From: an uncultured Prevotellaceae bacterium
GTDB taxonomy: Bacteria; Bacteroidota; Bacteroidia; Bacteroidales; Muribaculaceae
Assembly (NCBI GenBank): GCA_946410125.1
Contig: CAMJZF010000006.1
Location: 1 to 43,288, forward strand
DNA length: 43,288 bases
Direction: 5' to 3'
Shown piece after piece: positions 8,430 to 34,953 of this stretch (positions are counted from its first letter, which is position 1; every line of letters begins with the position of its first letter). The notes beneath the pieces were generated by a model, which did not search any database, was not told where the DNA came from, and saw nothing but the letters and a program-made list of their open reading frames with translations. Both the position numbers and the translations under genes were made by a program.

Positions 8430-8460
8430 TTTGATAATGAATGAAAAAATATTACCTTTG
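8430..8460 (+). promoter_or_regulatory. Bacteroidota-type promoter of the B12 locus
   Basis: TTTG at 8430-8433 and TACCTTTG at 8453-8460 match the Bacteroidota -33 (TTTG) and -7 (TAnnTTTG) elements with a 19-bp spacer. Transcription would start a few bases before the riboswitch aptamer. It is among the best-formed promoters in the window. Confidence 0.75.
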
Positions 8461-8463
8461 CAG

Positions 8464-8650
8464 CGCATTTTTGGTGCTGTGAGGCAAAACCTTACGGTTA
8501 AAAGGGAACCGGGTTAGAATCCTGGACAGACCACGCTGCTGTATTTCCCGCTACCAAGTTGCAGCACACTCTGTGCTATATCGTCACTGTCGATGAAGAC
8601 GGGAAGGCGGTGCTGCAATGGGATAAGTCAGAAAACCTGCCATAATGCAT
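8464..8650 (+). promoter_or_regulatory. Cobalamin riboswitch
   Basis: The leader carries the expected cobalamin-aptamer landmarks in order: the GGTGC entry, the GGGAACCGGGTTAGAATCC region, ACCACGCTGCTGTA with TTCCCGC, GACGGGAAGGCGGTGCTGC, and the B12 box AAGTCAGAAAACCTGCC at 8625-8641. A 12-bp perfect palindrome (8642-8653) follows the box. The receptor start codon is 43 bp beyond the box, and no T-tract terminator is visible in between. Control by masking translation initiation of the receptor mRNA when B12 is bound is therefore more likely than attenuation. The riboswitch identifies the cargo of the downstream receptor as a corrinoid. Confidence 0.95.
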
Positions 8651-8684
8651 TATAGTTTTAACTGACTAACGGGGTAAAAGAGTT

Positions 8685-10745
8685 ATGTTAAAGAGATTTA
8701 CCATGACATTGCTGGCTTTGGTTGCTTGCTCCCTGGGCTCTTGGGCTCAAGGCAATAACTCGTTGTCTCAAGTTAACGACATCGACACCATGCAGTACTT
8801 GCAGAATGTGGTAGTCTATGGCAACAAGCCTTATGGCAACGTTATCCCGTCGCAAATGCTCAAAGGGAAGCAGCTTGAACGCCTCAACAGCCACTCGGTG
8901 GCCGATGCCGTGAGATATTTTGCCGGAGTCCAGCTCAAGGACTATGGCGGCGTGGGGGGCATCAAGACCGTTGACATGCGCTCGATGGGAACTAACCACA
9001 TGGGGGTGTTTTATGATGGCATTCAGCTTGGCAATGCGCAGAACGGACAGATTGACCTGGGGCGTTTCTCGCTCGACAATGTTGAGGAAATAGCTCTATA
9101 TAATGGGCAAAAAAGCGAGATTTTCCAGCCGGCACGCGATTATGGCTCGGCAGGAAGCATTTATCTGCGCACCAAGAGACCCAAGTTCGTCGGTGACAAG
9201 CGCGACAACCTTAATGTGACGATGCGCACGGGCTCTTTTGGGCTCGCCAATCCTAGCGTGCGATGGGAGCACAAGTTCAGCCGCACTCTCACCATGTCGC
9301 TTAATGCCGAGTATACCTATGCCACTGGTCAGTATCACTTCCGTTACCGCAAGGTTTTTAGCGATGGGGTAGTGGCGTGGGACACCACAGCTGTGCGCAA
9401 GAATGGTGACGTGAAGGCCTTTCGTGCCGAAGGTGCCATTTTTGGCACCATCAACGACGGTAAGTGGAACGCTAAGTTCTACTACTACGATAGCGAGCGT
9501 GGCATCCCTGGTGCCATTGTCAATAATGTGTGGATGAGTTCTCAGCGACAATGGGACCGCAACTTCTTTGCACAGGGGAGCTGGCAACAACGCATTAGCG
9601 ACCGTTTTGAGATGATGCTCAATGCCAAGTATGCGCGCGACTACATGCGCTACCTTAATCCCGATACCACACTAATGTATCTTGACAACAAGTTCTGGCA
9701 AGACGAGATATATGTCTCTACTGCCAACAAATATACCATCATGACCGACTGGGACGTGAATGTGAGTGTTGACTACAAGTGGAACTATCTGAATTCCAAT
9801 CTGTCAAACTTTGCTTATCCCACTCGTCACACACTACTGGCGGCTATTGCCACTGCCCGCACCTGGCGTGGGCTTAAAATGCAGGCGAGCCTGTTGTTTA
9901 CCCATGTCAATGACCGCTACACTTCTCGCTCGGCAGGTGTTGTCGTGCTCAAGCACAACAAGCGTCTCGACAAGTTTACTCCTGCTGTATTCCTCAGCTA
10001 TCAGCCGTGGCAGGAACATGACTTGACTTTCAGGGCATTTTTCAAGCGCATTTTCAGGATGCCCACTTTCAACGACCTGTTTTATACCGATATAGGCAAT
10101 GCCGGACTAAAGCCCGAATATGCCACCCAGTGGAATGTGGGAGCTCTTTATCAGCGATATAGCGAGGAAGGCGTTTTCAGTGGCTTTAAGGTGAGTGCCG
10201 ATGCCTACTATAATATCGTTGATGACAAGATTATCGCAATTCCCAAGGGCACAGGACAATATCGCTGGATGATGATGAACATTGGCAAGGTTAAGATTCG
10301 CGGTGTCGATGTCACGGCGCGATTGGCATTCCGTCTGCCTCATGACCTTGTGCTTGAGGGCGGTGTGAATTACACCTATCAGCGGGCTCAAGATTATACT
10401 AATCCCAACGATAACTTTGACGGAGGCACTTACAAGGGGCAGATAGCCTATATACCTTGGCACAGCGGTAGCGCAACTGTGCATCTTGCATGGCGCAACC
10501 TTGACGTGAACTACAGCTGCATCTATGTGGGCGAGCGTTATCACACCAGTGCCAACATCCTTGCCAATCACGAGCAGCCGTGGTACACTCATGACCTTAG
10601 TGCCAGCTATCTTCTCCATTTCAGCAGGTCGTCACTCAAGGTAACTGCCGAGGTCAACAACCTGTTTAATCAGCAATATGACGTAATACAAAACTACCCC
10701 ATGCCAGGGCGTAATTATCGATTGATATTGAAGTTTGATATATGA
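8685..10745 (+). CDS. btuB: TonB-dependent corrinoid receptor, BtuB type
   Basis: This is an outer-membrane TonB-dependent receptor that should import vitamin B12 and related corrinoids. The 686-residue chain has a signal peptide ending near SLGSWAQ (residue 21) and a short TonB-box-like segment around NVVVYGNK. A plug domain covers about residues 45-165, with MRSMGTNHMGVFYDGI and an ending in GSAGSIYLRTKRP. A long 22-strand barrel ends in YRLILKFDI. The cargo assignment rests on the cobalamin riboswitch directly upstream. Its stop overlaps the next start by 4 nt (ATGA), which implies translational coupling. No inner-membrane btuFCD genes are in the window. Confidence 0.92.
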   Translation: MLKRFTMTLLALVACSLGSWAQGNNSLSQVNDIDTMQYLQNVVVYGNKPYGNVIPSQMLKGKQLERLNSHSVADAVRYFAGVQLKDYGGVGGIKTVDMRSMGTNHMGVFYDGIQLGNAQNGQIDLGRFSLDNVEEIALYNGQKSEIFQPARDYGSAGSIYLRTKRPKFVGDKRDNLNVTMRTGSFGLANPSVRWEHKFSRTLTMSLNAEYTYATGQYHFRYRKVFSDGVVAWDTTAVRKNGDVKAFRAEGAIFGTINDGKWNAKFYYYDSERGIPGAIVNNVWMSSQRQWDRNFFAQGSWQQRISDRFEMMLNAKYARDYMRYLNPDTTLMYLDNKFWQDEIYVSTANKYTIMTDWDVNVSVDYKWNYLNSNLSNFAYPTRHTLLAAIATARTWRGLKMQASLLFTHVNDRYTSRSAGVVVLKHNKRLDKFTPAVFLSYQPWQEHDLTFRAFFKRIFRMPTFNDLFYTDIGNAGLKPEYATQWNVGALYQRYSEEGVFSGFKVSADAYYNIVDDKIIAIPKGTGQYRWMMMNIGKVKIRGVDVTARLAFRLPHDLVLEGGVNYTYQRAQDYTNPNDNFDGGTYKGQIAYIPWHSGSATVHLAWRNLDVNYSCIYVGERYHTSANILANHEQPWYTHDLSASYLLHFSRSSLKVTAEVNNLFNQQYDVIQNYPMPGRNYRLILKFDI

Positions 10746-27111: not shown

Positions 27112-27405
27112 TTATTTGTCTTTCTTGGTTTTTTCGAGCTGGCGTTTCAAGGCATCGACAGCCAGGTCAATGGCCTCTTCAAATGTGTCGGCTGTCTTGT
27201 TGGCAAAGAGGTCCTCGTTGCGTGGAATCAGCAGCTTGATGCTGGCCTCCTTGTTCATGGCAGTCTCTGGTTTAACAACTTTCAATGTCACCTCGGCATT
27301 GGTGATCTCCTCATGATGCTTTACTAATTTCTCAACTTTCTTGTTGATAAACTGGTTGAGTTTCTCGGTTGCATCAAAATGAATGGCTTTTACATTAATT
27401 TCCAT
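27112..27405 (-). CDS. hpf: Ribosome hibernation-promoting factor, short form
   Basis: HPF/RaiA-family proteins bind the 30S subunit where tRNA and mRNA sit and inactivate or dimerise ribosomes in stationary phase. The 97-residue product matches the short form: IHFDATEKLNQFINKKVEKL at the start, the helix NKTADTFEEAIDLAVDALKRQL, and a basic tail. It lacks the long-form dimerisation domain. Only one base separates its ATG from the xerC stop. The last xerC codons carry a perfect Shine-Dalgarno sequence, which is exceptional for this phylum. The xerC-hpf pair is a conserved Bacteroidales order. Confidence 0.95.
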   Translation of the reverse strand: MEINVKAIHFDATEKLNQFINKKVEKLVKHHEEITNAEVTLKVVKPETAMNKEASIKLLIPRNEDLFANKTADTFEEAIDLAVDALKRQLEKTKKDK

Positions 27406-27406
27406 A

Positions 27407-28306
27407 TTAGCCTCCTTTTTTAAGTGCCCGGGGATGGGCGAGTTTATAATTATTTTTCAGTTCACTAAATGTCACATGTGTGTAAAGTTGTGTGGTGGCA
27501 AGCGACTCGTGACCAAGGAGTTCCTTCACTCCGTTGAGCGAGGCCCCGTCGTTGAGCATGGCTGTGGCAAAGCTGTGCCTGAGCACGTGGGGGCTGCGCT
27601 TGCTCATCACTCCAACCTCGCTGAGCGACTGCTTGACTACACGGTAAACCAGCATCGGGTACAGCGGCTTGCCGTTTTCAAGGACAAAGAAGGTGTCGCA
27701 TCTCCCAACATGGCAATCTCTCAACGACCGGTACTTGTCAATCCATATTGCAAGTTCGGTGCCAAACGGTATAATGCGGTCTTTGTCACGTTTTCCGTGC
27801 ACCTTGAGCTCGCCTTTGGCTGTGTCAACGTTATGGTCGAGCAGTCCTAATAGCTCGGCGCGGCGCATGCCGGTCTCATACAGCATCATCACTATCAAGT
27901 GGTTGCGCACCTGCTCAAAATCCTGCTCATCAATTTCCTTGTCGAGTAACGCATCCATGCTGCTTTCTCTCACCAGTTCTGGCAGGCGTTTGGGAATGCG
28001 TGCCAATTCTACATCACTGGCTGGGCTGGATGCCACGGCTCCTTGCCGCATGAGCCACTTATAGAACGAGCGCACTGCCTGCACCTTGCGGCGAAGTGTG
28101 CGGGCTCCATCTCCCTGCTTACTCAAGTGCAACAGCCATGCCCTGATGTCGCTTGCTGTCACACTTGTCACATCAAGCGGCTCACGCCCGTTGGTGAGAA
28201 ATTGCTCCCACTGCAGCAGGTCGGCACTATAGGCTGTAACCGTGTGAGGAGAGAAATTCAACTCTACCTTGATGTATTGCAAGTAGTTATCAATGGTTTT
28301 GCTCAT
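27407..28306 (-). CDS. xerC: Tyrosine recombinase XerC/XerD
   Basis: This is a site-specific tyrosine recombinase that should resolve chromosome dimers at dif. The N-terminal SAM-like domain (residues about 5-85, NYLQYIKVELNFSPHTVTAY) precedes the catalytic domain. Catalytic features are R in GMRRAELLGL, K in VHGKRDKDR, HVLRHSFATAML (HxxR) and LGHESLATTQLYTH with the nucleophilic Tyr. The ATG at 28306 gives 299 residues. An upstream TTG at 28327 would add 7 residues and is less likely. It is cotranscribed with hpf. In many Bacteroidales rpsU lies just upstream, but the 150-bp gap here is too small for it. Confidence 0.93.
   Translation of the reverse strand: MSKTIDNYLQYIKVELNFSPHTVTAYSADLLQWEQFLTNGREPLDVTSVTASDIRAWLLHLSKQGDGARTLRRKVQAVRSFYKWLMRQGAVASSPASDVELARIPKRLPELVRESSMDALLDKEIDEQDFEQVRNHLIVMMLYETGMRRAELLGLLDHNVDTAKGELKVHGKRDKDRIIPFGTELAIWIDKYRSLRDCHVGRCDTFFVLENGKPLYPMLVYRVVKQSLSEVGVMSKRSPHVLRHSFATAMLNDGASLNGVKELLGHESLATTQLYTHVTFSELKNNYKLAHPRALKKGG
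27411..27417 (-). promoter_or_regulatory. Perfect Shine-Dalgarno sequence for hpf
   Basis: The minus strand reads AAGGAGG with a 5-nt gap (CTAAT) to the hpf ATG. It lies inside the last Lys-Gly-Gly codons of xerC. None of the other starts that I read in this window has a comparable sequence. Confidence 0.85.
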
Positions 28307-28359
28307 TACTCTTATTATTATTGGCAATGAAATTGTTTCGTTGGGCTACTAAATTACGC

Positions 28360-28395
28360 AAAAATCGCAATAAAAACAAATTTATTGCGATTTTT
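28360..28395. terminator. Bidirectional intrinsic terminator
   Basis: A perfect 15-bp stem (28360-28374 with 28381-28395) with a 6-nt loop has A and T runs on either side. It lies upstream of xerC and downstream of the SH3-like gene on the minus strand, so it separates the rsh/HD operon from xerC-hpf. Confidence 0.88.
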
Positions 28396-28456
28396 TTACA
28401 ATTATGGCTACTTTTTTTAATCTATAGCCATTTTTGGCATTTTAAATTTACTGTTG

Positions 28457-28978
28457 TCACGGGCAAGTGGTTAATGGATTGTCGCAAATGCGGTCACGAT
28501 GCAGCCATCCGGTGTGTTTCTTGCCGTTAACGACAAATGTAACCTTTACCCAGTCGCCCTTAATGTCGATGGGCCTAAGTGTTTCCTCGCCAGGGTAAAA
28601 ATATACTTTCAGGGCTTTGGCTTTGCTCGATGGAGTGGTGCGCAGTGCCCCTTTAGGGTCGCCGGTGATGCCAAAGCCTAATAGCGAAGAGTGAACCCAA
28701 TATCCTGTTTTTGAGCCTTTAAGCTTCTCGGTCTTTTCTTCGTCGCCCACATAGAATACTTCATCGTCAATATTCCACCATCCGTCTTTAGCATAGTTCA
28801 GCGTCACTATGATGTTGGCATCGGTTGGTAGTGTTGCCACAATTTTGCCATTGGGGGCATTGCGAATGTTGGTTACAGGTCCGTCGCCATCAACAATGTA
28901 GGCCGATATCAAGCCTTGTGCATTTATTGACAAGGGTAGCATTATAGCCATTGCCAACAGTAAAAACAATTTTTTCAT
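28457..28978 (-). CDS. Exported SH3-like domain protein
   Basis: The 173-residue product has a signal peptide (MKKLFLLLAMAIMLPLSINA). A bacterial SH3-like fold spans about residues 22-125, with the hallmark TNIRNAPNGKIVATLP, the DGWWNI segment, and GYWVHSSLLGFG. A second such half follows (ALRTTPSSKAKALKVYF to HTGWLHRDRICDNP). Bacterial SH3 domains commonly bind peptidoglycan or cell-surface ligands. It is the last gene of the run that begins with rsh, 108 bp after the DUF4919 gene, and is followed by a strong terminator. The exact role is unknown. Confidence 0.82.
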   Translation of the reverse strand: MKKLFLLLAMAIMLPLSINAQGLISAYIVDGDGPVTNIRNAPNGKIVATLPTDANIIVTLNYAKDGWWNIDDEVFYVGDEEKTEKLKGSKTGYWVHSSLLGFGITGDPKGALRTTPSSKAKALKVYFYPGEETLRPIDIKGDWVKVTFVVNGKKHTGWLHRDRICDNPLTTCP

Positions 28979-30387: not shown

Positions 30388-32484
30388 TTATTCCTCTAAT
30401 GCCGCATTGGTGTCAAGTTCATCACTGCCTGCGGTGTTTTTCTCTTCATTGACTTTCACGTCTTCGGGGTAGGAAACGCGGGTGTGGTAGAAGGTGAGCA
30501 AGCGCTTGATAAGGGTCTTCTTCACATCGCCAATATCCTTGAAGCTGATGGGTGACTCGTTGAACAAACCTTCATTAACTTGAGAGTCAATGATTTTCTC
30601 CACGAGGTTGGTAATGTTGGTCTCATTAGGCTCGGCAAGGCTCTTGGCAGCGGCTTCACAGGAGTCGGCCATCATCAGGATGGCGGCCTCCTTGGTCTGC
30701 GGGTTAGGGCCGGGATAAGTATATGGAGCTGCATCTACATTGCCGGTGGCACTCTGCTTAAGGGCCATGTTGTAGAAGTAGCGCGTCTTGCCTTTGCCGT
30801 GATGTTGGGCTATAAGGTCTTTGACAACCTCAGGCAGATTGGCTTTCTCGGCACGCTTGATGCCATCGGTTACATGTGAGATTACTATAGAGGCGCTCTG
30901 CTGGGGCTGAAGCACGTCGTGGGGATTCACGCCACTCTGATTCTCGGTGAAGAATGCGGGATTGTCGATTTTGCCAATGTCGTGATAGAGTGCTCCGGCT
31001 CTCACAAGCTGGGCGTTGGCACCAATGTTGCGTGCAGCCTCGCCTGCCAGCGTCGCTACCTGCAATGAGTGCTGGAAGGTGCCGGGGCAGTTCTCCGAAA
31101 GTTCCCTGAGTATAGGATTGTTGATGTCGCTGAGTTCCACAAGTGTTACCTGCGAAGTGAACCCGAAGATTTTCTCAACAATGAAGATGCCAAAATAGGC
31201 AAACGAGAGCACGATGCAGTTGACGGCGAAGTAGAGAATCACATGCCAGTCAAAGCCGCTGAATGTGCCGTTCCTGACAACATACTGCGCGGCATAGGTT
31301 ACACTGTAGCACAAGAAGATGAGCAGGGCACACACTACAAGCTGTGAGCGTTGCATCAGCCCCTTTATCGAGAGGATGGCAATGATGCCGGCAAGGAACT
31401 GCATGATGATGAAATCGCTGGCATCGGGAGCGACAAGCGAACTGATGAGCACTACCACCAAATGGGTGAAAAATCCTAACGGAATGTTGAAGAACACGGT
31501 CACTACTATTGGCACCAGCGCAAATGGAATGAGGTAAAGCAACCCCGACCTCAAGTGAGCTATCACATATACCATCAGCACAAATACCATCACAAAGCAG
31601 AAGAGGAAAATCATGTGACGGAGGCTGCCATAAATCTTAGGGTATAATATCCTGATATACAGGTAGAGGACAAACATGATGAGGAACAATACCACAAGGT
31701 TTCCAAGTACCGAGAACTTCACAACCTTGTTGTTGAGATTGCGCTCCTCGCTCAGGCGTTCGTAGGTCTTGAGCAGTGTATAGGTTTGAGCGGTAACGAT
31801 TTCGCCATAGTCGATGATGCGCTCGCCGGTGAGCTTCACGCCATGAGGTGCCAGAGCCATCTTGTAGGCTTCGTCAAGCAACGATTTCGACCTTACGGAG
31901 TCATATTTTAGGCTTGGCGACAGGTTGTTGTAGAGCAACTGCGACAGCTCCTTGCCCTGGTCGATGCCAAAAAGAACAGTTGAGTCGAGATAGGAGTACA
32001 CTTCCATTGCCGACTTCAGGTCGGCGGCATTAACAGCATAAGATTCATTACCCTGACTGTTGATTATCCTTATCTGCTTGATTTTACCTCTGGTAATCAG
32101 CGATTTGGTGGTGTTGTCGACAATGCCGGTCTCATAGAATTTCTTGGTGGCCTCAAGCAGTCGGCTCTTCACAGGCGAGGAAATGCCGGTAATAGTTGGC
32201 AGAGCGGTAGAAATGTTCTCAAGCGATTTCTCTATCACGGCATCATTTACCGTGAAAATGGGGGAGAAATTGCTCTCGATGCTGTCCTTGATGCGCTTGG
32301 TGCTCAACGAGTCATACTCGATGGGTATGTCAAACGGCGCGATGAGCTTGGGGTAATTCCAGGGACGGCCTTCATTGTAGACAAGCACGTCGTTGGAACC
32401 GCCGCCAAAGAAGAACGACAACGAGCCCACCGTTGCTGCAATGATTAGCATCACTATGATATTGTTGCGAACCGACTGTTTCAT
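30388..32484 (-). CDS. pgpH: 7TM-HD domain phosphodiesterase, PgpH type
   Basis: PgpH-family proteins hydrolyse cyclic di-AMP with a cytoplasmic HD domain. The 698-residue chain has one N-terminal TM (about 9-27) and an extracytoplasmic 7TMR-HDED-like domain (30-250). A block of about seven TM helices follows (257-445), then the HD domain (465-640). The metal ligands are all present: H472, H501-D502 in YHDIGK, H in ISHVTDG, H in AQHHGKG and D in MMADSCEA. It lies 36 bp after the (p)ppGpp synthetase/hydrolase gene on the same strand. Activity on c-di-AMP is inferred from family members in Firmicutes. Confidence 0.9.
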   Translation of the reverse strand: MKQSVRNNIIVMLIIAATVGSLSFFFGGGSNDVLVYNEGRPWNYPKLIAPFDIPIEYDSLSTKRIKDSIESNFSPIFTVNDAVIEKSLENISTALPTITGISSPVKSRLLEATKKFYETGIVDNTTKSLITRGKIKQIRIINSQGNESYAVNAADLKSAMEVYSYLDSTVLFGIDQGKELSQLLYNNLSPSLKYDSVRSKSLLDEAYKMALAPHGVKLTGERIIDYGEIVTAQTYTLLKTYERLSEERNLNNKVVKFSVLGNLVVLFLIMFVLYLYIRILYPKIYGSLRHMIFLFCFVMVFVLMVYVIAHLRSGLLYLIPFALVPIVVTVFFNIPLGFFTHLVVVLISSLVAPDASDFIIMQFLAGIIAILSIKGLMQRSQLVVCALLIFLCYSVTYAAQYVVRNGTFSGFDWHVILYFAVNCIVLSFAYFGIFIVEKIFGFTSQVTLVELSDINNPILRELSENCPGTFQHSLQVATLAGEAARNIGANAQLVRAGALYHDIGKIDNPAFFTENQSGVNPHDVLQPQQSASIVISHVTDGIKRAEKANLPEVVKDLIAQHHGKGKTRYFYNMALKQSATGNVDAAPYTYPGPNPQTKEAAILMMADSCEAAAKSLAEPNETNITNLVEKIIDSQVNEGLFNESPISFKDIGDVKKTLIKRLLTFYHTRVSYPEDVKVNEEKNTAGSDELDTNAALEE

Positions 32485-32520
32485 TATGCTGAATTTTGTT
32501 TGTTTTCAATAATCGTTTGG

Positions 32521-34794
32521 TTAAGAACGCCTTATCGCCTTGGTCACGCCTTTCACCTTGCTCAGGCGCTTGCACATCTTGGTAACGGTGTTCACGTCCT
32601 CAACGAGCACATCCATTTCGCAAGTGAAGACTCCGGCATCCGATGTGATGTTAAGGCGACGCATGTTGATGGCGAGGTTGGTCGAGATGATATAGATAAT
32701 TTCTTGAAGGATTCCCATTCGGTCAATGCCTTCAACCCTGATTGAGGCAAAGAATGTCTCATTGCCTATTTCCCATTGCGTTTCAAGCAGGCGGCTGCCA
32801 AAACCGCTCTTGAGCTTCATGGCGGTTGGGCAGTCGATTTTGTGCACTATCACCTCGTTGTTTTCGTTGATATATCCTATCACGCTATCGCCGGGCAATG
32901 GATGGCAGCAATTGGCAAGCTGGTAGTTGCTCTTTCCGTTCTCGGTGCGCAGCACATACACTTTCTTGCGGTCTATCTTCTTGCCTTTCTCGTTGTTTTC
33001 TTCATGATTGGTCTCGTTCTTGCCATTCTTGCTGCCAAACGACATTTTCCACCACTTGCTCAGTAGGTTTTGCGATGCCGGCTTCAACGACTTTAGCACC
33101 AGTGGCGAAAGTTCTACATCGCCCTTGCCCACCTTGAAGTACAGGTCTTCCTTGTTTTGAACGCCGAGGCTGCTGATGATGCGAGTGAGGTTTTCATTGT
33201 TGATTTCGGCATTGTTGTCGGCCATGAACTGCTTGAATTTTTCCTCACCCTTGTCGACAATCTCACGGCGCATGTGCTTGAAAGCATTGTTGAGGCGGGT
33301 CTTGCCCTTGGCAGTGGTAACAAACTTGCTCCACTCATGCTGTGGACGCTGCGACTGTGAAGTGAGAATTTCTACTTGGTCGCCGCTGGAAAGGCGGTGC
33401 GACAGTGGCACCAGCCTGTGGTTTACTTTGCCGGCAATGCAGTGAGTGCCTATCTCGCTGTGGAGCGTGAATGCCAAGTCGAGCACCGATGCTCCCACCG
33501 GGAGCGATATCATGTCGCCCTTGGGGGTGAACACCGCAATCTCACGGGCGTAGAGGTTGAGTTTTATCGAGTCAAGGAAGTCGAGGGCGTTGGGTTCGGG
33601 ATTCTTCAAGATATCTTCAATTTCCTGGAGCCATCCGCGCAACTGGTTGTCTTCTTCCATCTCCGAGCCACCTTCTTTATACACCCAGTGGGCGGTAATG
33701 CCGCGCTCATCAATGTTGTCCATCTTGCGACTGCGTATCTGAACCTCAATCCATTCGCCGTCAGGACCCATTACTGTTACATGCAGGGCGCGATAGCCGT
33801 TGGGCTTGGCATGGGCAAGCCAGTCGCGTATGCGGTCGGGGTGTATCTTGTTGTAAATCTTGGTAATCTGGTTGTAGATTGCCCAGCACACTCCGTTCTC
33901 ATCCTTGTCTTCGGGGCATTCAAACACGATGCGGGCGGCATAGATGTCATAAATCTCGTCGATTGGAATGCGCTTGGTCTGCATCTTTTTCCATATCGAG
34001 TAACACGACTTGATGCGGGCCTTGAACTCGTAGGTCAGCCCCATCTCATCAAGACGTTCACGAATTGGAGCCGAGAAGCGTCCAAACACATCCTGACGCT
34101 TGCTTTCGCTTGCCTCAACGGCTTCTGAAATAGACTTGTAGATGTCGGGGTGCTCATATTTGAAGCTCAGGTCTTCAAGCTCGGTCTTGATAGCAAAGAG
34201 ACCCAGCCTGTGAGCCAGCGGTGCATAGATATAGAGTGTCTCGCCGGCGATTTTATATTGCTTGGCAGGAGGCATCGAAGCCAGCGTGCGCATGTTGTGA
34301 AGGCGGTCGGCCATCTTGATGAGCACCACGCGTATGTCGTCGCTCATCGTAAGCAGCAGTTTCTTGAAATTCTCGGCTTGAGCCGAAGCTTTCTCACCAA
34401 AGATGCCACCCGATATTTTTGTGAGTCCTTCAACGATGTTGGCAATTTTGTCGCCCACCTTCTCGCCGGTCTCGCCCACCAGCTCGTCGCCAAAGATTGC
34501 CTTGATGTCGTCGAGGGTGTACTCGGTATCTTCTACCACATCATGAAGAAGGGCTGCGCATATCGACGTGGAGCCGAGCCCAATCTCCTGGCTCACGATC
34601 GTGGCTACGGCAATAGGGTGGAGGATATATGGAACTCCTGAACGGCGTCTAATGCCCTCATGAGCACGACGAGCAAAGCGGTAAGCTTTTTCTATCTTTT
34701 CCACTTTCTTGCGATGATTGCTTGATAGATAGCCGTTTAGTAACTGTTGGTAAGCATCGTCTATCAATTTGTTTTCTTCTTCAGGACTCATCAT
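32521..34794 (-). CDS. rel: Bifunctional (p)ppGpp synthetase/hydrolase, Rel/SpoT family
   Basis: The 757-residue protein has the full RSH layout. The hydrolase HD domain covers about residues 45-200 (H59, H84-D85, KMADRLHNMRTL). The synthetase domain covers about 250-380 (PNGYRALHVTVMGPDG, EVQIRS). TGS is at about 410-480, followed by a helical and Cys-containing region (LANCCHPLPGDSVIGYI). The C-terminal ACT domain covers about 690-757. The intact HD motif predicts both hydrolysis and synthesis of the alarmone. The start is one of two adjacent ATGs. A -7 box lies 39 bp upstream, divergent from lgt. Confidence 0.96.
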   Translation of the reverse strand: MMSPEEENKLIDDAYQQLLNGYLSSNHRKKVEKIEKAYRFARRAHEGIRRRSGVPYILHPIAVATIVSQEIGLGSTSICAALLHDVVEDTEYTLDDIKAIFGDELVGETGEKVGDKIANIVEGLTKISGGIFGEKASAQAENFKKLLLTMSDDIRVVLIKMADRLHNMRTLASMPPAKQYKIAGETLYIYAPLAHRLGLFAIKTELEDLSFKYEHPDIYKSISEAVEASESKRQDVFGRFSAPIRERLDEMGLTYEFKARIKSCYSIWKKMQTKRIPIDEIYDIYAARIVFECPEDKDENGVCWAIYNQITKIYNKIHPDRIRDWLAHAKPNGYRALHVTVMGPDGEWIEVQIRSRKMDNIDERGITAHWVYKEGGSEMEEDNQLRGWLQEIEDILKNPEPNALDFLDSIKLNLYAREIAVFTPKGDMISLPVGASVLDLAFTLHSEIGTHCIAGKVNHRLVPLSHRLSSGDQVEILTSQSQRPQHEWSKFVTTAKGKTRLNNAFKHMRREIVDKGEEKFKQFMADNNAEINNENLTRIISSLGVQNKEDLYFKVGKGDVELSPLVLKSLKPASQNLLSKWWKMSFGSKNGKNETNHEENNEKGKKIDRKKVYVLRTENGKSNYQLANCCHPLPGDSVIGYINENNEVIVHKIDCPTAMKLKSGFGSRLLETQWEIGNETFFASIRVEGIDRMGILQEIIYIISTNLAINMRRLNITSDAGVFTCEMDVLVEDVNTVTKMCKRLSKVKGVTKAIRRS

Positions 34795-34945: not shown

Positions 34946-34953
34946 TACCTTTG
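34946..34953 (+). promoter_or_regulatory. Putative -7 box for lgt
   Basis: TACCTTTG matches the consensus exactly, 30 bp before the lgt ATG. A T-rich stretch about 20 bp upstream can serve as the -33 element. It rules out the earlier TTG start at 34951, which would lie inside this box. Confidence 0.6.

Follow-up and report, generated by a model that had tools for sequence, protein, structure and literature searches.

A conserved Shine-Dalgarno sequence and a covarying hairpin before hpf in Bacteroidales suggest that a special ribosome state may control hpf

The window, by which we mean the whole stretch of 43,288 nucleotides analysed here, contains a junction between xerC and hpf on its minus strand with the following features.

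27407 to 28327, minus strand: xerC, tyrosine recombinase, given as its longest frame (TIGR02224, 303.5 bits, below the cut-off of 335.15; PF00589 and PF02899).
27426 to 27439, minus strand: predicted RNA hairpin GCCC-AUCCCC-GGGC, formed from the XerC Ala-His-Pro-Arg-Ala codons (RNAalifold consensus and covariation).
27411 to 27417, minus strand: putative Shine-Dalgarno (SD) sequence AAGGAGG (AAAGGAGG when position 27418 is included), 5 nt upstream of the hpf ATG (pairing energy and conservation).
27112 to 27405, minus strand: hpf, short ribosome hibernation-promoting factor of 97 residues (PF02482, E = 2.9e-21; TIGR00741, 50.9 bits against a cut-off of 40.9).

The true start of xerC is likely the ATG at 28306. 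On the minus strand, the xerC/hpf junction reads AAAAAAGGAGGC TAA T ATG: AAGGAGG (27417-27411) is followed by CTAAT and the hpf ATG (27405-27403), and the xerC stop codon TAA (27409-27407) is located between the heptamer and the ATG. The original prediction, which had placed AAGGAGG 5 nt before the hpf ATG and within the last xerC codons, is confirmed on this point, and the same stretch encodes the C-terminal KKGG of XerC in the window. No rpsU was found upstream of xerC (27407-28978, minus strand). The gene order rpsU-xerC-hpf occurs in many relatives, and in near relatives such as G050, G030 and G092 rpsU and hpf are on different contigs, with the hpf SD unchanged. Upstream of hpf on the same strand (30388-34794, minus) are a RelA/SpoT-family gene and a 7TM-HD gene, which places a stringent-response gene close to the hibernation gene in this window. 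A cobalamin riboswitch (RF00174, 83.2 bits; 8455-8658, plus strand) lies just upstream of a TonB-type B12 receptor frame (8685-10745; TIGR01779, E = 4e-31, under its cut-off). No Bacteroidales-type internal promoter was found near hpf; exact matches to the consensus occur three times in the window, all elsewhere.

The hpf SD pairs with the 3′ tail of 16S rRNA at -12.2 kcal/mol in the window, calculated with the order's own tail. This tail, CACCUCCUUUCU, was read in genomes of the window's genus (L165, L166, L169), and a pattern search found no 16S end in the window's own genome. The pattern matched in 7 of 120 genomes, one of which (G159) was not 16S; a pattern containing GGATC matched in 1 of 200 genomes and was discarded as wrong for Bacteroidales. 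The order's own tail was used for the window frames, the 80 titled-record loci and the gene and junction controls described below, and a generic tail, AUCACCUCCUUUCU, for the 150-genome energies. Among the candidate starts of 29 other frames in the window (rpoB, at the window edge, left out), the next best is -7.7, with the exception of an ATG 36 codons inside the frame at 34951, which we take to be lgt, at -11.3. With that exception, the earlier claim that other genes of the window carry weak matches holds. The AAGGAGG motif alone is not rare: it occurs 7 times in the window on both strands, against 4.4 expected, and at least 7 copies are found in 16 of 100 shuffles.

An HPF match was found in 180 of 200 genomes, and 150 hpf starts, including that of the window, were examined: 84 from the window's genus, 19 from its family and 47 from the rest of the order (one per family). 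These were taken from the matches listed, outside which stand three genomes of the genus (G009, G051 and G083) and 27 order-level genomes, which biases the order sample towards closer relatives. Pairing at ≤ -7 is found in 141 of the 150 starts (genus 82 of 84, family 17 of 19, order 42 of 47), whereas a mock window placed some 30 nt farther upstream gives 1 among the 150 (0, 0 and 1 at the three levels). The motifs are AAGGAGG (118), AGGAGG (6), GGAGG (6), AGGAG (9) and AAGGA (2), with none in 9 genomes, and motifs ending in GGAGG lie 4-9 nt from the ATG. We also examined 80 loci from titled records, which partly overlap the 150-genome set and include Bacteroides fragilis, B. xylanisolvens, Phocaeicola coprophilus and an uncultured Parabacteroides. 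Here, 79 of 80 hpf starts are at ≤ -9, the exception being a Porphyromonas, and 57 of 80 are at ≤ -13, by an energy method that is not the same as the free_scan of PMC9976891. The median is about -13.4 both in the window's genus and in the 80 loci. From this conservation, we consider it very likely that the sequence is a working Shine-Dalgarno.

The same letters encode protein in the window's genus, where the XerC tail AHPRALKKGG* is found in 54 of 84 genomes, and the motif could in principle arise by chance through XerC's choice of Lys-Gly-Gly codons, as the original prediction allowed. At the order level, however, the SD lies 3′ of the xerC stop in 28 of 40 genomes, in all three frames. XerC ends there in AHPRA* in 28 of 40 genomes and in AHPKA* in 2 of 40, and four of the AHPRA* genomes have no SD. 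Across all levels, a recognised XerC end is present in 143 genomes, with no HPxA match in the other 7 of the 150. Of the 143, 103 have the SD within xerC, 2 across the stop codon and 30 after it, and 8 have no SD. Over 35 order-level rows, the SD-ATG distance has a standard deviation of 1.10, and the hairpin-SD distance ranges from 7 to 33 nt with a standard deviation of 4.31. The SD thus appears to be anchored to the hpf ATG and not to xerC at the order level, and KKGG is therefore best read as the translated SD and not as its cause. The original prediction had named conservation of the motif beyond the coding need as its test; the test was run and did not refute it, since the SD is kept independently of the XerC frame. 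Codon choice is in our view refuted as an explanation, and the comparison argues that selection beyond coding need keeps the SD.

Other genes of the same neighbourhoods do not share this signal. Among 1128 other called genes in the 80 loci, 2 are at ≤ -13 (mock 6) and 51 at ≤ -9 (mock 45), compared with 46 and 62, respectively, of the 62 called hpf genes. The gene caller missed hpf in 18 of the 80 loci, all of which are covered by the energy count given above, and the control genes were scored at the best of several candidate ATGs, which favours the controls. The SD is thus exceptional for its neighbourhood, as predicted, and is kept in Bacteroidales at hpf as for no neighbouring gene tested. 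These counts also bear on the idea that the SD is an inherited remnant from an ancestor that used SDs, or else a neutral by-product. Such an origin would fit the SD-like hpf starts of two more distantly related genomes of the phylum (G327, -9.6; G452, -10.2). Without selection, however, decay would be expected, and the SD persists in 42 of the 47 order-level genomes (one per family) while neighbouring genes show no excess over mock. This explanation was already disfavoured, and we regard it as very improbable.

Translational coupling by re-initiation is a known mode at short or overlapping junctions, and the main rival explanation is that the SD is a plain start signal or an aid to re-initiation after xerC, with no tie to bS21 or ribosome state. 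In 142 of the 143 genomes with a recognised XerC end, hpf either overlaps the xerC stop or begins no more than 25 nt from it. In the exception, G109, the xerC end is 176 nt away and both the SD and the hairpin pair are lost; in G191, the xerC end is 114 nt away and the SD is gone. These cases favour a coupling role. Other tight junctions (-20 to +30 nt) in the same loci nevertheless show 1 of 227 starts at ≤ -12 (mock 1), compared with 59 of 61 for hpf, in a set that includes five stretches of G061; general SD use at tight junctions is thereby ruled out. Moreover, G176 retains AGGAGG before hpf, with no xerC found within 1.45 kb upstream. A plain SD is further disfavoured by the report that, in wild-type Flavobacterium johnsoniae, adding a strong SD to a tuf reporter somewhat lowers expression and does not raise it (main text of PMC9976891). 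The junction data and G176 speak against a general coupling role and are compatible with a local one. We consider this rival somewhat unlikely.

The hpf SD is not the sole strong SD in these genomes, as judged from G061 and from rpsR. In G061, a single-contig genome of the window's genus, AAGGAGG-N4-8-ATG occurs 54 times, against 12 in a reversed control; 13 of the sites are called starts other than hpf, and hpf itself is uncalled there, its site having been confirmed separately. Ten of these genes were searched, including a transporter, a chromate transporter, a citrate lyase subunit, a restriction subunit and a helix-turn-helix protein, as well as three small proteins without a Pfam match. 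iorB of G061 was considered as a broadly kept SD and rejected: its SD is present in 21 of 21 close relatives and in 0 of 8 more distant ones (1 of 30 loci gave no start), and thus appears lineage-bound, unlike that of hpf. A separate stretch of G061 (C1:2277361-2278147, L283) holds four AAGGAGG-ATG sites within 0.8 kb, two of which are called starts of small genes; one of the two was searched and had no Pfam match. This stretch may be a mobile element relying on SDs within a host that is poor in them. rpsR is a known SD gene of Bacteroidales (Jha et al. 2021, as cited in PMC9976891). Its SD has a median of -11.0, with 17 of 29 loci (L410-L439) at ≤ -7; the remaining 12, all from the window's genus, carry a decayed form, AGGAAG. 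hpf has AAGGAGG in all 10 genomes read among those 12.

The predicted hairpin in the last xerC codons, which falls outside the coordinates of the original prediction and ends 8 nt 5′ of the SD heptamer in the window, has the form GCNC-6 nt-GN′GC. Three of its four pairs are largely set by the protein, and the fourth joins two third-codon positions. This free pair is kept in 61 of 61 aligned sequences (58 at family or order level and 3 from the genus, with G109 left out), where shuffles expect 31.8 and 0 of 10,000 reach 61. The pair types are UA (24), CG (18), AU (11), UG (5) and GC (3), and among the 45 pairs that ten neighbouring third positions can form, the next best is matched by 15 of 1000 shuffles. 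Double-changed cells number 32, compared with 7.1 in shuffles, and slid controls fail. On the XerC tree, the two sites show at least 19 and at least 24 changes, and 24 when taken jointly, as if nearly every change at one site were matched at the other. Formal independent-pair covariation tests have 2-4 supported pairs per contrast, too few for significance. RNAalifold found the hairpin unprompted, it is also present in the predicted fold of the window RNA, and the free pair is intact in 80 of 80 titled-record loci, 12 times as U-G. These observations indicate that the hairpin is under selection.

The hairpin and the SD are separable, since the pair is retained in the SD-less genomes G107, G123, G135, G154 and G172, and the hairpin may have a partly separate role. 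The Porphyromonas locus (L271), like that of G135 (L079), lacks the hpf SD and keeps the hairpin pair; G135 has two HPF matches. In class Bacteroidia outside Bacteroidales, judged by eye, 3 of 7 rows with both Ala codons pair in families without the hpf SD, compared with 5 of 6 in family f81, which has it. The hairpin probably gives the RNA 5′ of the SD a defined fold, a role that is our guess. Pseudoknot pairing of the hairpin loop (UCC) with the SD was dropped because UCC is not kept, His CAC and CAT both being found. XerD was not comparable as a hairpin control, since most XerD tails read HPRN and lack the second Ala; no C-terminus was found in 6 of 30 loci. A conserved fold closing the SD with hpf codons showed no sign at family or order level and a slight one in the genus, where the SD is predicted to be slightly more closed (0.24 unpaired, compared with 0.34 for synonymous controls; lower in 66 of 82). 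As a second constraint whose pair persists in SD-less genomes, the covarying hairpin would suit an alternative in which hairpin and purine stretch are jointly bound by another regulator, either an RNA-binding protein or a small RNA, with the likeness to an SD secondary. Against it stand the ATG spacing, which stays at SD distance while that to the hairpin varies as described above, and the conserved letters, which are the 16S complement, and we consider this alternative improbable.

The tail-holding pocket of the ribosome is a precondition of the original prediction, and evidence for it comes from F. johnsoniae, where the main text of PMC9976891 reports that the 16S tail is held by bS21, bS18 and bS6, that ribosomes without bS21 favour rpsU mRNA and that mutation of Y54 in bS21 raises SD reporters. 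An AGGAGGU-tuf reporter responds there to bS21 mutation or depletion, rising more than 2-fold with truncated bS21 and by 70% with Y54A. Y54 is kept in 108 of 109 Bacteroidales bS21 proteins, and this component of the anti-SD pocket thus seems to be present in the order. bS21 was not found in the window's assembly, which is 84% complete, and we do not conclude that the organism has lost it, because rpsR is likewise unseen there.

rpsU had been named as a known exception that keeps an SD, and this stands for other orders but not for Bacteroidales, in which 0 of 109 rpsU starts are at ≤ -13 and 16 of 109 at ≤ -7, all at order level. The main text of PMC9976891 agrees, reporting the rpsU circuit in four of the five Bacteroidia orders and in no Bacteroidales. 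In that study (McNutt et al. 2023), the criterion was < -13 and the authors hold that autoregulation needs an extraordinarily strong SD; only ribosomal-protein genes were ranked, with a whole-genome scan for Flavobacteriales alone. In our comparison of other families of the class, rpsU is at ≤ -13 in f81 (7 of 7), f84 (10 of 11, with a median of -19.6, stronger than the hpf SD), f88 (4 of 7) and f82 (3 of 5), and in 0 of 9 starts in f83, f85, f87, f89 and f90. The hpf SD is present in 7 of 7 starts of f81 and in 0 of 34 starts of the eight other families, one of the 34 (G252) being a doubtful start. Three of these eight families have a strong rpsU SD instead and five have neither, so that a swap between hpf and rpsU is not clean. 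Bacteroidales and the three families thus appear to have opposite SD states, f81 both and five families neither. Family f81 (L302, L304-L308 and L322), with strong SDs on both genes in 7 of 7, is a natural place for comparing the two.

Bacteroidales are a major group in the gut and their genes seldom use SDs, which makes it puzzling that they keep the anti-SD. A strong hpf SD in an order without the rpsU circuit offers a candidate job for this little-used anti-SD, and would connect ribosome composition to hibernation directly and in a way open to test. We propose a two-part start element, composed of the small hairpin, an A-rich linker, AAGGAGG, 4-9 nt and the ATG. In Bacteroidia ribosomes, bS21, bS18 and bS6 normally hold the anti-SD, and the hpf SD would therefore mainly serve 30S subunits with a free 3′ tail, be it through lack of bS21, incomplete assembly or wear. 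These subunits would prefer hpf for initiation, and the resulting HPF would park ribosomes, so that HPF synthesis would follow the share of incomplete or worn 30S subunits. We give this reading a probability of roughly 0.55. Within it, preference for hpf by ribosomes with a free anti-SD, through lack of bS21 or a damaged pocket, is the best mechanism we can infer. We regard a tie between the hpf SD and bS21 or ribosome state as plausible, at or slightly below an even chance. The element would then be to Bacteroidales what rpsU autoregulation is to Flavobacteriales, except that its output would be HPF in place of bS21. More tentatively, a specialised-ribosome circuit of the rpsU type may have moved to hpf, with defective or ageing ribosomes summoning their own hibernation factor through the hairpin and the SD.

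hpf is not mentioned in the main text of PMC9976891, and we found no report of an SD on hpf in Bacteroidota in the titles and abstract openings listed by full-text searches of open-licence papers. Among known systems, re-initiation coupling resembles the hpf case in its short or overlapping junction, and differs in that other tight junctions here show no SD excess. The rpsR SD belongs to the same order and to a gene tied to the anti-SD pocket (via PMC9976891); it is weaker than the hpf SD and, as noted, decayed in some loci. The closest likeness is to the rpsU/bS21 autoregulation of F. johnsoniae as described in the main text of PMC9976891, with which the hpf element shares a strong SD in an SD-avoiding phylum, an intact CCUCC anti-SD, Y54 of bS21 and a ribosome-upkeep gene as target. 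It differs in having hpf as the target, in belonging to Bacteroidales, where no rpsU circuit was found, in its pairing length (about 7-9 bp by our own reading, against 9-13) and in the covarying hairpin that precedes the SD. An element of the rpsU type would be located upstream of rpsU, and this one precedes hpf. The hpf element is therefore like rpsU autoregulation in design and is not a member of that system.
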